DNA of 41,845 nt from Opitutales bacterium (GTDB lineage Bacteria; Verrucomicrobiota; Verrucomicrobiia; Opitutales; T3Sed10-336), in NCBI GenBank assembly GCA_007130045.1, contig SLTG01000007.1, forward strand, positions 1 to 41,845. The letters run 5' to 3'. The translations under genes were made by a program, and so were the position numbers. Positions 33,297 through 41,704 of this stretch are shown in pieces; position 1 is the first letter of the stretch; the number at the start of each line of letters is the position of its first letter. Below the pieces are notes generated by a model. It was given only the letters and a program-made list of their open reading frames with translations, was not told where the DNA came from and did not search any database.

Positions 33297-34559
33297 TTAT
33301 GGGTCCGTGTCCGGCCTGAAAGCGAGAGGGACCGTGTGGAACGCCCAGACGGCGGCAGCCGCCACCCAGAGAAAAGCCGCTTTGCCCAGGTAGAAGGCGT
33401 ATGCCTCCGGATGGACATCCGCCAGGAAACGGAGGACCAGTGACGCGACGGACAGCGCCAGGACGATCCCGAGAAATTTCACAGGGCCTTTGAGCCGCGC
33501 CCCGAGTCCGGCGTGGCCGAAGATCACGCGGGTCGCCACGATCCAGGTGATCAACCCGATTCCCGTGAGCAGGACGGCGTGGAGGCCGGCCGTACGGAAG
33601 GCGGGGAAAAGGATCATCGCGATACCGCCGAGCGGAACAGAAGCAAGCGCGACCTTGAGCGAAAACGTGAGGAAGCCGGGTTGCTCGGGTTTTTTCCAGA
33701 GCGGAACCATCCTCAGCAGGTACGCGCTTACGCTGACGTAGCGCAGGGCGATCCCCGTGGCTTCGTGCGTCATGTACTCGATCCAGAAGGAGGCGAAGAC
33801 GAGAGCTCCGATCAGGAACGGCGCCATTGCTCCCCGCACCCATTCCGCGTCGGGTGTCGGGCCGCCCGGGAACCGCTGCCTTGGAGGGTAGCCGAGAAGC
33901 CGGGGAAAGAAGAATGCTCCGACTCCCGCGATCATGCAGAGCAACGCTCCCTCGGCGACGAATCCCATGCCCAGGCGGCTCCACGGAATGCCCGCTCCCC
34001 ATCCGCTGCCGCCGAGCAGAAACAGGAGTCCGACCGGAAAATGCGCGAAACCGCAGACGACCAGCGCGAAGGACGGCGGAGGCAGGTCGCTGCGCCTGGG
34101 GAAACGGCGTGCGAGCATCGTCGCGAAACCCGCGAAAAACACCAGGAACGCTCCGTCACCAAAGGCGAGCCAACCGCCGGCGTAGGCGACGCTGCCGGCA
34201 AGGTAAACTCCGAGAAGAGCAGCGGTTTCCGGCCAGCCCAGCGGGCGAACTTCGAGGATGCGGGGCGCGGCGGTTCCGAGAAATCCGACCACAAACGCCC
34301 CGAAAAAACTCATGATCATCATCCGCCCGTGGGTTGGGCCGGGAAAAAGCGGCCATAGACCGTAAAGAAACAAGGGCCACAGGATGACCGCAAAGACTCC
34401 TGCCAGCAGACCCAAAGGAAAGAAGAGACGGAACGGCTCGCCTGGAAGTTCGCTCCAGCGTATCGTTTGGGGACGAAGTTCCTCGTCGGTCGGACCGCCG
34501 TCCGCCGGCACGGGACCCGGAACTCCCGCAGGCGGATCTTGTTTCATGGGTTTTCTCAT
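33297..34559 (-). CDS. nnrS: NnrS family membrane protein
   Basis: 420 residues with about twelve hydrophobic helices. NnrS is a haem- and copper-containing inner-membrane protein linked to denitrification and protection against nitrosative stress. Family features: a Pro-rich cytoplasmic N-terminus, then GEPFRLFFPLGLLAGVFAVILWPLF, GPTHGRMMIMSFFGAFVVGFLGTAAPRI, HFPVGLLFLLGG, FFFPRLLGYPPRQRFPG and TGIGLITWIVATRVIFGHAG with conserved His residues. Start ATG 34559 has an AGGG ribosome site; ATG 34547 is an alternative. It is the third gene downstream of the FNR-type box at 35619-35632, after cupredoxin and azurin, with 66 bases between it and azurin. Confidence 0.88.
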   Translation of the reverse strand: MRKPMKQDPPAGVPGPVPADGGPTDEELRPQTIRWSELPGEPFRLFFPLGLLAGVFAVILWPLFLYGLWPLFPGPTHGRMMIMSFFGAFVVGFLGTAAPRILEVRPLGWPETAALLGVYLAGSVAYAGGWLAFGDGAFLVFFAGFATMLARRFPRRSDLPPPSFALVVCGFAHFPVGLLFLLGGSGWGAGIPWSRLGMGFVAEGALLCMIAGVGAFFFPRLLGYPPRQRFPGGPTPDAEWVRGAMAPFLIGALVFASFWIEYMTHEATGIALRYVSVSAYLLRMVPLWKKPEQPGFLTFSLKVALASVPLGGIAMILFPAFRTAGLHAVLLTGIGLITWIVATRVIFGHAGLGARLKGPVKFLGIVLALSVASLVLRFLADVHPEAYAFYLGKAAFLWVAAAAVWAFHTVPLAFRPDTDP

Positions 34560-34625: not shown

Positions 34626-35102
34626 TTATTCCACGTGCATGGTCCCCACCATGCCGGCCGGGGTGTGGTTCGGGAAGGAGCAGACGAAGGGATAGTCGCC
34701 GGCATCCGAGGGCGCGGTGAAGGTCAGGGTTTCCTCTTCGTTGGGGCCGAGGATCCGGGTGGCGGCGATTACGCTGTCTTCCATTTCGGGTGCGATGTAT
34801 TCATTGTCCCTATGCCGTTGCGCGGCGGCCGAGAACGCGTTCGCGTCGGTCCCCTGTTCGAGAATTGCGAGATTGTGACCCATCGCGTCCTTGGGCATGC
34901 GTCCGATGTTGCGGAAAACGACGGTGACTTCGCTTCCCGCCTCGACCGTGAACTCCGTCGGGCTGAACTGCATCAGGTCGTTTCCCGTGATGACGATTTC
35001 GCCGGCTGATCCTCCCTGTTGGGGAGCGTCGCCGCCGCATCCGGCAAGGATTGAAATTCCGGCCAGTACGAGAAGGCCGTTGAGGATTCGATTTTCTTTC
35101 AT
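34626..35102 (-). CDS. Azurin-like cupredoxin lipoprotein
   Basis: 158 residues. The N-terminal lipoprotein signal ends in lipobox ILAGC (Cys22). The mature domain matches azurin: ITGNDLMQFSPTEFTV, VVFRNIGRMPKDAMGHNLAIL (ligand His76), then YPFVCSFPNHTPAGMVGTM with Cys141, His146 and Met151 as type-1 copper ligands. The H-to-M spacing (five) is one longer than in classical azurin (four). It should shuttle electrons at the membrane face. It lies 33 bases after the other cupredoxin and 66 bases before nnrS, so it is the middle gene of a three-gene operon. Confidence 0.93.
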   Translation of the reverse strand: MKENRILNGLLVLAGISILAGCGGDAPQQGGSAGEIVITGNDLMQFSPTEFTVEAGSEVTVVFRNIGRMPKDAMGHNLAILEQGTDANAFSAAAQRHRDNEYIAPEMEDSVIAATRILGPNEEETLTFTAPSDAGDYPFVCSFPNHTPAGMVGTMHVE

Positions 35103-35135: not shown

Positions 35136-35582
35136 TCAAAGCTCATTGTGCGCAACGACAGGGGTGTCGTCGATCAGCTTGAATTCACCCGCCATGCCGG
35201 CTTCTACGTGGCCGGGAATCGTGCAGTAATAGCGGTCGTCGGTTTCGGCGACGAACGTGATACCCGTGACCGCGCCGGATTCGACGATGGTGTCGCTTCG
35301 GACCCGGTGCCGGCGAAGCGCGATGTCGTGAACCATCCGTTCGCCGTTGACGATGGTGATCGAGACCGTTTCGCCTTCACGGGCGCGAAGGACGGGATTC
35401 CGTGTCCCGTCGATTTCACCGCCTCGACCGTAATAGCCGGTCATGACCGCAACCAGGGTGAACTCCCTGTCGGATGGTCCGGTCGGCTCGACCGCTGCGT
35501 CGTTCTGGTTGCGGGTGCACGCCACACCGGCCGCCATTGCTGTGGCGACCAGCGCGCCGAATATCAAACGGAATCGTGTCAT
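35136..35582 (-). CDS. Exported cupredoxin-domain protein (nitrite reductase-type copper domain)
   Basis: 148 residues. A hydrophobic export signal (about 5-21) ends in GVAC; the residue at -3 is Gly, so lipidation of Cys22 is possible but not canonical. The remainder is one cupredoxin domain with all type-1 copper ligands: His85 (MVHDIAL), Cys120 (DRYYCTIPGH), His125 and Met130 (VEAGMAGEF). YYCTIPGHVEAGM resembles cupredoxin domains of copper nitrite reductases and related oxidases, standing alone here. It is the first gene after the FNR-type box. The ATG at 35582 lies about two bases from the predicted transcription start and no ribosome site precedes it, so its message is probably leaderless. 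Confidence 0.88.
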   Translation of the reverse strand: MTRFRLIFGALVATAMAAGVACTRNQNDAAVEPTGPSDREFTLVAVMTGYYGRGGEIDGTRNPVLRAREGETVSITIVNGERMVHDIALRRHRVRSDTIVESGAVTGITFVAETDDRYYCTIPGHVEAGMAGEFKLIDDTPVVAHNEL

Positions 35583-35583
35583 T

Positions 35584-35632
35584 GGCGTTCACTCTAGCCG
35601 GGGGCCGGGTGAACGCGTTTGATCTTGATCAA
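35584..35632 (-). promoter_or_regulatory. FNR/DNR-type operator and class II promoter of the cupredoxin-azurin-nnrS operon
   Basis: TTGAT (35619-35623) and ATCAA (35628-35632) are perfect FNR/NnrR-type half-sites around four bases. On the minus strand a -10-like TAGAGT lies at 35596-35591, giving a predicted start at 35584. The box centre (35625.5) is then exactly 41.5 bases upstream, the normal position for direct activation by CRP/FNR-family regulators. The cupredoxin ATG begins two bases further. Nothing else on either strand nearby explains the motif. Confidence 0.75.
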
Positions 35633-35658: not shown

Positions 35659-35687
35659 AACCGGGCGCTTCGAATCAGCGCCCGGTT
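35659..35687 (-). terminator. Hairpin at the 3' end of the GspB-like lipoprotein gene
   Basis: A ten-pair perfect stem AACCGGGCGC / GCGCCCGGTT with a nine-base loop includes the stop codon (35675-35677) of the minus-strand gene. A T-run follows only after about 20 bases, on the other side of the stem, so termination may be weak. Confidence 0.45.
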
Positions 35688-36550
35688 GGGAGGAACGATT
35701 TCTCGTATTCAGCACCAGGGCCGTCCGAAAATACGACCCGCCGTGGTTCCACCGCCTTCAGCCTCACCTGGACTCCTTGTCCGATGGCTTCACCTTCTTT
35801 AAGGAGGCGACCGTTGACGATGATTCGATTCCAGCCCGGCGCTATGGCACTGATCGCGAGTTGGTCGATATAACGTCGCGTTTCCGCGTTCTGGCCGGGA
35901 GCGGTAATTCGTGTGAGTTCGGACAAAATCCGTTCCTCCATAGGAATCTCCGGTTCCTTATCCGCGTGTTCGGTCCCGGCGATTTCCTCTTCCGCGAGCG
36001 GCTCGGGTTCCTTTTCGACCGGTGCGGGCGTTCTTTCGCGTTCGTCGTCTCTTGAGGCGACACGAATCGTCACGTCCGGTTCGTCGAATCTGACCGCGAT
36101 CCGATCGGCGACGAGTTGATGGTTGACGAGTTCGATAGGCGAGTTACGTGTGCTGAAAGTGAGCTGCTCGATCGCTTCTTCCTCGTCGTAATTCACTCGG
36201 TACATCAGGACCGTGAAGGTTTCGCCGGGATTGTCCTCCGGTCCGAACGTTTGAGTTCGAGCCTGAATAAGAGAATGTCGCCGGTATCGTCCAAGGTTCT
36301 CTTCGATCTCGGCAAGAGTCTCGATCCAGCGTTCGCGCGGCACACGTTCGTAGAATCTGGGCGAATACAGCGCGGCGGCCTCCTGGTAATCGCGCTGACC
36401 GAGGCGCTCGTACACCTGGTTCGCGTGGGCTTTGGCTTCTTCCGAATAGTCGATGCCGCCTCTGCCGCACGCTCCGAGAAGAAGTAGGATGATAAGAAGG
36501 AAGGGCGCGGACGCTTTCCTTAATAAGTGATTAAATGATTTTGTTTTCAT
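35675..36550 (-). CDS. Lipoprotein with NTF2-like domain and GspB/GspC-like C-terminal domain
   Basis: 291 residues. The lipoprotein signal ends LLLLGAC (Cys28). Residues about 35-165 (YSEEAKAHANQVYERLGQRD, ALYSPRFYERVPRERWIETL) look like an NTF2-like DUF4019-type domain. A linker of charged and Pro residues (about 170-210) follows. Residues about 225-290 (LAISAIAPGWNRIIVNGRLL, then GEAIGQGVQVRLKAVEPRRVVFSDG) match the small beta domain of type II secretion assembly proteins GspB/PulB or GspC. It lies 38 bases after a pseudopilin gene on the same strand, with a GGAGAG ribosome site, so the pair is probably an operon. A role in an envelope assembly is an inference. Confidence 0.75.
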   Translation of the reverse strand: MKTKSFNHLLRKASAPFLLIILLLLGACGRGGIDYSEEAKAHANQVYERLGQRDYQEAAALYSPRFYERVPRERWIETLAEIEENLGRYRRHSLIQARTQTFGPEDNPGETFTVLMYRVNYDEEEAIEQLTFSTRNSPIELVNHQLVADRIAVRFDEPDVTIRVASRDDERERTPAPVEKEPEPLAEEEIAGTEHADKEPEIPMEERILSELTRITAPGQNAETRRYIDQLAISAIAPGWNRIIVNGRLLKEGEAIGQGVQVRLKAVEPRRVVFSDGPGAEYEKSFLPTGR

Positions 36551-41690: not shown

Positions 41691-41704
41691 TTGATTTAAA
41701 TCAA
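41691..41704. promoter_or_regulatory. Second perfect FNR/DNR-type palindrome
   Basis: TTGATTTAAATCAA is a perfect palindrome with the FNR/NnrR consensus halves TTGAT and ATCAA and a four-base centre. It lies about 125 bases after the kinase stop and 10 bases past the stop of a partial minus-strand frame. No start codon with a good frame is close, so a target gene, if any, lies outside the window. AT-rich context raises the chance of coincidence. Confidence 0.35.

Follow-up and report, generated by a model that had tools for sequence, protein, structure and literature searches.

Here we describe a promoter region in the genome of an Opitutales bacterium, located in a 41,845-nt stretch of DNA that is referred to below as the window. 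We consider it likely that positions 35583-35632 constitute a class II promoter of the DNR type, from which a near-leaderless cup1-azurin-nnrS operon would be expressed as part of a denitrification/NO regulon. For a soda-lake family of Verrucomicrobiota with a cultured member that produces N2O from nitrite, this would be a concrete regulon of the DNR type, in which both cupredoxins, NnrS and also a small PCxxC protein are controlled together with the nitrite and NO reductases.

Promoter architecture

The features of the operon and its upstream region are:

35659-35687, minus strand: 11-bp GC-rich hairpin (z -3.4) between the upstream gene and the box
35619-35632, minus strand: DNR/FNR-type box, a perfect TTGAT-N4-ATCAA (TTGATCTTGATCAA at these coordinates)
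35591-35596, minus strand: -10-like hexamer TAGAGT, 22 bp past the box, the class II spacing
35583-35584, minus strand: predicted +1 (35584) and 2-nt leader, placed from the spacing
35136-35582, minus strand: cup1, lipoprotein-like type-1 cupredoxin, 148 aa (H85, C120, H125, M130)
34626-35102, minus strand: azurin-like cupredoxin lipoprotein, 158 aa (PF00127)
33297-34559, minus strand: NnrS, 420 aa (PF05940, 106.3 bits against a cut-off of 28)

Read directly from the sequence toward cup1 (minus strand, 35632-35619), the box is TTGATCAAGATCAA, and its centre at 35625.5 lies 43.5 nt 5' of the A of the cup1 ATG. The hexamer is followed by GAACGCCA and then by the ATG at 35582 (minus strand), 8 nt beyond TAGAGT, and no Shine-Dalgarno-like word was found in the 20 nt 5' of this ATG. 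With +1 placed on the seventh base past the hexamer, that is, at 35584, simple arithmetic on the sequence puts the box centre at -41.5. In class II promoters of the CRP/FNR type, such as those of Escherichia coli FNR, the box lies at -41.5, and the cup1 upstream region has, at the sequence level, the box position, the -10 element and the spacing of this class. An earlier note on this DNA, made from the sequence alone, had reported the same box, -10 and ATG, which agree with the sequence base for base, and its values for the box centre and the 2-nt leader are reproduced if transcription starts at 35584.

The hairpin extends into the end of the gene that lies upstream on the same strand and stops at 35675; a T-rich stretch comes about 20 nt after the hairpin. 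The hairpin was not among the predictions of an intrinsic-terminator search; its position suggests, short of proof, that cup1 is the start of its own transcription unit. A second perfect box (TTGATTTAAATCAA) is present in the window at 41691-41704, in the intergenic region past a histidine kinase gene and 141 bp from the contig end, and might be a chance match.

The cup1-azurin-nnrS operon

The type-1 copper ligands of cup1 (H85, C120, H125 and M130) are invariant in the alignment of its relatives. cup1 shares this H, C, H, M set with the rusticyanin and plastocyanin/azurin cupredoxins but scores below the cut-offs of both families, just below for Pfam plastocyanin/azurin (19.9 against 21.2) and at 34.8 against 146.7 for rusticyanin. 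The second cupredoxin reaches 76.5 bits with the TIGR02695 azurin equivalog, below the cut-off of 105.1, and we therefore call it azurin-like. Thus, among the gene names proposed earlier, NnrS stands on its PF05940 match, cup1 retains the cupredoxin ligands at a score under the Pfam cut-off, and azurin has to be weakened to azurin-like. NnrS used as a single query against the genome contigs found no relatives.

Outside the host family, the nearest relatives of cup1 come mostly from Bacteroidota, where they have different gene surroundings. Among the tested denitrification neighbours, these homologues had none, except for one weak azurin match, and they were therefore left out of the promoter comparison. 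In three relatives (G001, G002 and G006), cup1 adjoins the NO-reductase operon, and azurin homologues adjoin nirK (G004), the DNR gene (G002) and nosZ (the bacterium's own genome and G002). Hence, the cup1 operon gathers members that in relatives sit beside the reductases.

Conservation of the box and its spacing

In the 3.4-Mb genome we counted seven perfect copies of TTGAT-N4-ATCAA and none of the reversed pattern; a first-order Markov model built on 142 kb of the same genome gives an expectation of 3.1 (P about 0.04). A perfect box by itself is weak evidence, its count being barely above chance, and it is position, spacing and conservation that turn this weak evidence into strong evidence.

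We searched 132 genomes for cup1 and obtained six matches at the threshold, five of them clear (in the bacterium itself, in two members of its genus and in two of its family) and one weak (G021, 31%). In all five clear carriers, the box lies exactly 22 bp 5' of a -10-like hexamer, which in turn precedes the ATG by 7-10 nt, and the spacer is 40% identical compared with 90% for the box arms. The box is therefore kept in the four relatives that carry the leading gene, and its loss, which the earlier note had named as a possible refutation, was not seen for that gene. Similar promoters were found in front of the NO-reductase operon (4/4 genomes examined; spacing 21, TATACT, ATG 9-11 nt further on) and of nirK (three genomes; same architecture, spacing 22). 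Across unrelated genes, the spacers are 27-53% identical and the box arms 87-95%, with the spacing fixed.

When the best match to TATAAT was recorded at each spacing for 11 promoters picked without regard to spacing, it peaked at 21-22 bp, with a mean of 4.3 of 6 compared with 1.6 (sd 0.5) at other spacings. In the host family, 42 matches had class II spacing, 28 had the wrong spacing and 3 followed the reversed pattern. In two genomes that have neither cup1 nor a convincing DNR homologue (G005 and G007), all seven pattern matches fall inside long open reading frames.

Denitrification enzymes and the probable regulon

The earlier note had stated that reductases for nitrite, NO and N2O are absent and had suggested that the unit may be a stand-alone one. 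The statement holds for the window only: a search of the full genome for nirK, nor and nos, which that note had recommended, found all three. A stand-alone operon is thus rejected, and both the NO-reductase operon and nirK have the same kind of promoter as cup1.

The putative NO reductase, encoded on contig C76, is a B-family heme-copper enzyme in which the cross-linked Tyr is replaced by Gln, whereas the Cu-B and heme histidines are kept; in the active-site alignment, GH-QSQQ- stands against GH-PIVY-, with HH retained. The Tyr-to-Gln exchange is the mark of eNOR in a published table (PMC8756737), and the C76 enzyme carries it. Further products of the operon are a COX2-like subunit, SCO1/SenC and a fusion of cytochrome b, ferredoxin and FlpD, and its SCO and cytochrome b genes also recall clusters of the sNOR type. 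We describe the predicted enzyme as an eNOR-like B-family NO reductase. The head gene of this operon (L012:9108-10610, minus strand) encodes a paralogue of heme-copper subunit I that is degenerate: it shares about 27% identity with the catalytic subunit, lacks the Cu-B HH pair and gives no significant Pfam match. This gene is kept in G001, G002 and G006.

The copper nitrite reductase (CuNIR) on contig C92 scores 124.6 bits with TIGR02376, below the cut-off of 296.3, and matches 6hbe with 427.7 bits over 409 residues, so that the homology extends over all domains, including the C-terminal cupredoxin domain. The entry 6hbe, which we take to be from Thermus scotoductus, is annotated as a copper-containing nitrite reductase. 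In an alignment of the C92 protein (L039:4757-6775), Ser and Trp appear to occupy the positions of the catalytic Asp and His of classical NirK; its best match, 6hbe, likewise has Ser in place of the Asp. Contig C113 encodes a clade II NosZ (810 bits).

Boxes precede nor in four genomes, nirK in three genomes of the family and nnrS in three, the latter with its own box in G003 and G006 and as an operon member in the bacterium's own genome. Upstream of nosZ, boxes were found in G002 but not in the own genome: in G002, two boxes lie between the SCO gene and the facing nosZ (L181:7109-7280), whereas the own SCO-nosZ intergenic region contains no box within two mismatches. The regulon is therefore uneven. 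Boxes in front of nir, nor, nos and nnrS are what a DNR-type regulon comprises.

A small PCxxC membrane protein gene is preceded by a box in four genomes. The encoded protein (L009:6881-7465; L054, L058 and L060) has no Pfam match, and its gene combines a class II box with a near-leaderless start 9-10 nt past the hexamer, the start codon being GTG in two genomes. Ribonucleotide reductase is preceded by the pattern in G002, G003 and G004; these ATP-cone-containing, ribonucleotide reductase-like genes (L061, L074 and L076) show class II spacing with ordinary leaders. Two further perfect boxes in the own genome lie 5' of a fasciclin-domain gene on C59 (L010:5575-6144), the likely ATG of which is about 37 nt past the box centre, a misfit to class II for this start, and in the gap that separates a DUF2249 gene from the Crp/Fnr gene. 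We take DUF2249 to be COG4309.

The probable regulator

The genome encodes one protein with an HTH_Crp_2 domain above the threshold, on contig C69; the remaining domains of cyclic-nucleotide type in the genome are parts of larger open frames. The best solved relative of the C69 protein is Pseudomonas aeruginosa DNR (3dkw), with 136.6 bits, the next scoring 88 and FNR about 64. The N-terminal cysteine cluster that binds [4Fe-4S] in FNR is absent, and the recognition helix keeps E-x-x-S-R. Judged by sequence similarity, this sole Crp/Fnr-type HTH protein is a DNR homologue, as expected for a DNR-type regulon, and because of this relationship it probably senses NO through heme. The search for FNR, DNR and NnrR homologues proposed earlier thus returned a single DNR-like protein without the FNR cysteines. 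Three genomes, G000, G002 and G004, yielded a DNR homologue. None was found in the box-bearing G001, G003 and G006, a point against the DNR reading, but these MAGs are 82, 92 and 67% complete, respectively, so its absence from them is unproven.

Predicted near-leaderless promoters

We found this near-leaderless geometry in 18 promoters, which belong to five types of gene (cupredoxin, NO reductase, nirK, nnrS and the PCxxC protein); in them, the hexamer lies 5-11 nt 5' of the start codon and the predicted leaders measure -1 to 5 nt. Shine-Dalgarno-like words are absent from the last 20 nt in 16 of the 18, including all five cup1 promoters. Eleven of these promoters were identified without use of the spacing pattern. 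The remaining seven were found through it and therefore cannot count as separate evidence for the spacing. The distance from hexamer to start codon was no part of the search pattern.

The boxes of the DUF2249, fasciclin, ribonucleotide reductase and G002 nosZ genes lack near-leaderless spacing. In a crude test on 103 open reading frames of the same genome, -10-like hexamers were hardly commoner 5-11 nt 5' of the start than at neighbouring positions; near-leaderless starts as a genome-wide habit were thus not seen, with the caveat that start picking is noisy. A literature search found no paper that connects a DNR regulon with leaderless mRNAs; as negative evidence, this is weak. We tentatively propose, as a possibility that falls somewhat short of being probable, that the DNR-controlled core NO/denitrification genes of this family are made as leaderless or near-leaderless mRNAs, with box, -10 and start codon forming one nearly invariant unit of about 50 bp. 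If so, NO sensing would be coupled to Shine-Dalgarno-independent translation. The fixed unit makes it easy to test whether near-leaderless mRNAs can serve a stress regulon.

Alternative explanations

The promoter might be as described and yet the transcript carry an ordinary leader, starting elsewhere, either at an upstream promoter or by read-through from the gene at 35675-36550. The two same-strand genes are only 92 bp apart and no canonical terminator is predicted between them, but the 11-bp hairpin does separate them, and the distance from box to hexamer is constant in five genomes despite a differing neighbour gene; we regard this explanation as improbable. We are slightly more doubtful still that the activator is an O2-sensing [4Fe-4S] FNR and the operon a general anaerobic electron-transfer unit. 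Such a regulator would suit the box, which is identical to the FNR consensus, and the boxes at the ribonucleotide reductase genes of three relatives, which fit an oxygen response. However, the only Crp/Fnr-type HTH protein lacks the cysteine cluster and resembles DNR much more closely, for which reason FNR is not supported as the activator and was rejected, and the near-leaderless targets of known family are NO/nitrite genes. The FNR/DNR class II promoter of the earlier note consequently survives as to promoter type, on sequence and conservation, and loses its FNR half.

The explanation to which we give the least credence, as very unlikely, is a chance match, the similarity then being due only to common descent of the upstream DNA. 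By chance, the genome should indeed contain about three perfect boxes, so we rejected the box count alone as proof, and one of the seven lies within the ccoN coding sequence; the divergent spacers, conserved arms and fixed spacing across unrelated genes described above argue against this explanation.

Proposed mechanism

Under the preferred DNR reading, the C69 regulator, probably sensing NO through heme, would bind TTGAT-N4-ATCAA centred at -41.5 and activate RNA polymerase at a -10 without a -35. Transcription would begin 0-5 nt 5' of the start codon, yielding a nearly leaderless mRNA. The cup1 operon would be co-regulated with the NO-reductase operon, nirK, the PCxxC membrane protein gene and, probably, DUF2249. 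The most likely role of the two cupredoxins is to ferry periplasmic electrons to NirK, NosZ or the NO reductase, and that of NnrS is to guard against NO stress.

Comparison with known systems

With the class II promoters of E. coli FNR, the cup1 promoter shares the centre at -41.5 and a -10 hexamer 22 bp past the box, without a -35; unlike them, promoters of the cup1 type have a predicted start 0-5 nt 5' of the start codon and no Shine-Dalgarno sequence.

The GTDB genera PXDC01 and SLOW01 belong to the family T3Sed10-336, now Verruconatronumaceae, and the cultured Verruconatronum alginivorum AB-alg1 uses NirK and an eNor homologue to respire nitrite to N2O (PMC13274419). AB-alg1 is apparently of the same family as our bacterium and has the NirK and eNor homologue in common with it; however, its NirK belongs to clade 5 with cytochrome c, whereas the NirK described here is cupredoxin-fused and closest to 6hbe. 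The main text of that paper makes no mention of azurin, FNR or Crp.

The DNR consensus is CTTGATnnnnATCAAG (Rodionov et al. 2005, PMC1274295), and nnrS and COG4309 fall within NO-responsive regulons (PMC1274295). The regulon described here shares with the DNR regulon of Pseudomonas and beta-proteobacteria the box consensus, the DNR-type regulator, the targets nir, nor and nnrS, and likewise COG4309, which is linked to nor there (PMC1274295). It differs in phylum, in its eNOR-like B-family NO reductase and cupredoxin-fused CuNIR, and in its near-leaderless promoters. The best reading of these sequences is thus a DNR regulon of the Verruconatronumaceae (Opitutales), of a known kind but with an unusual near-leaderless habit.
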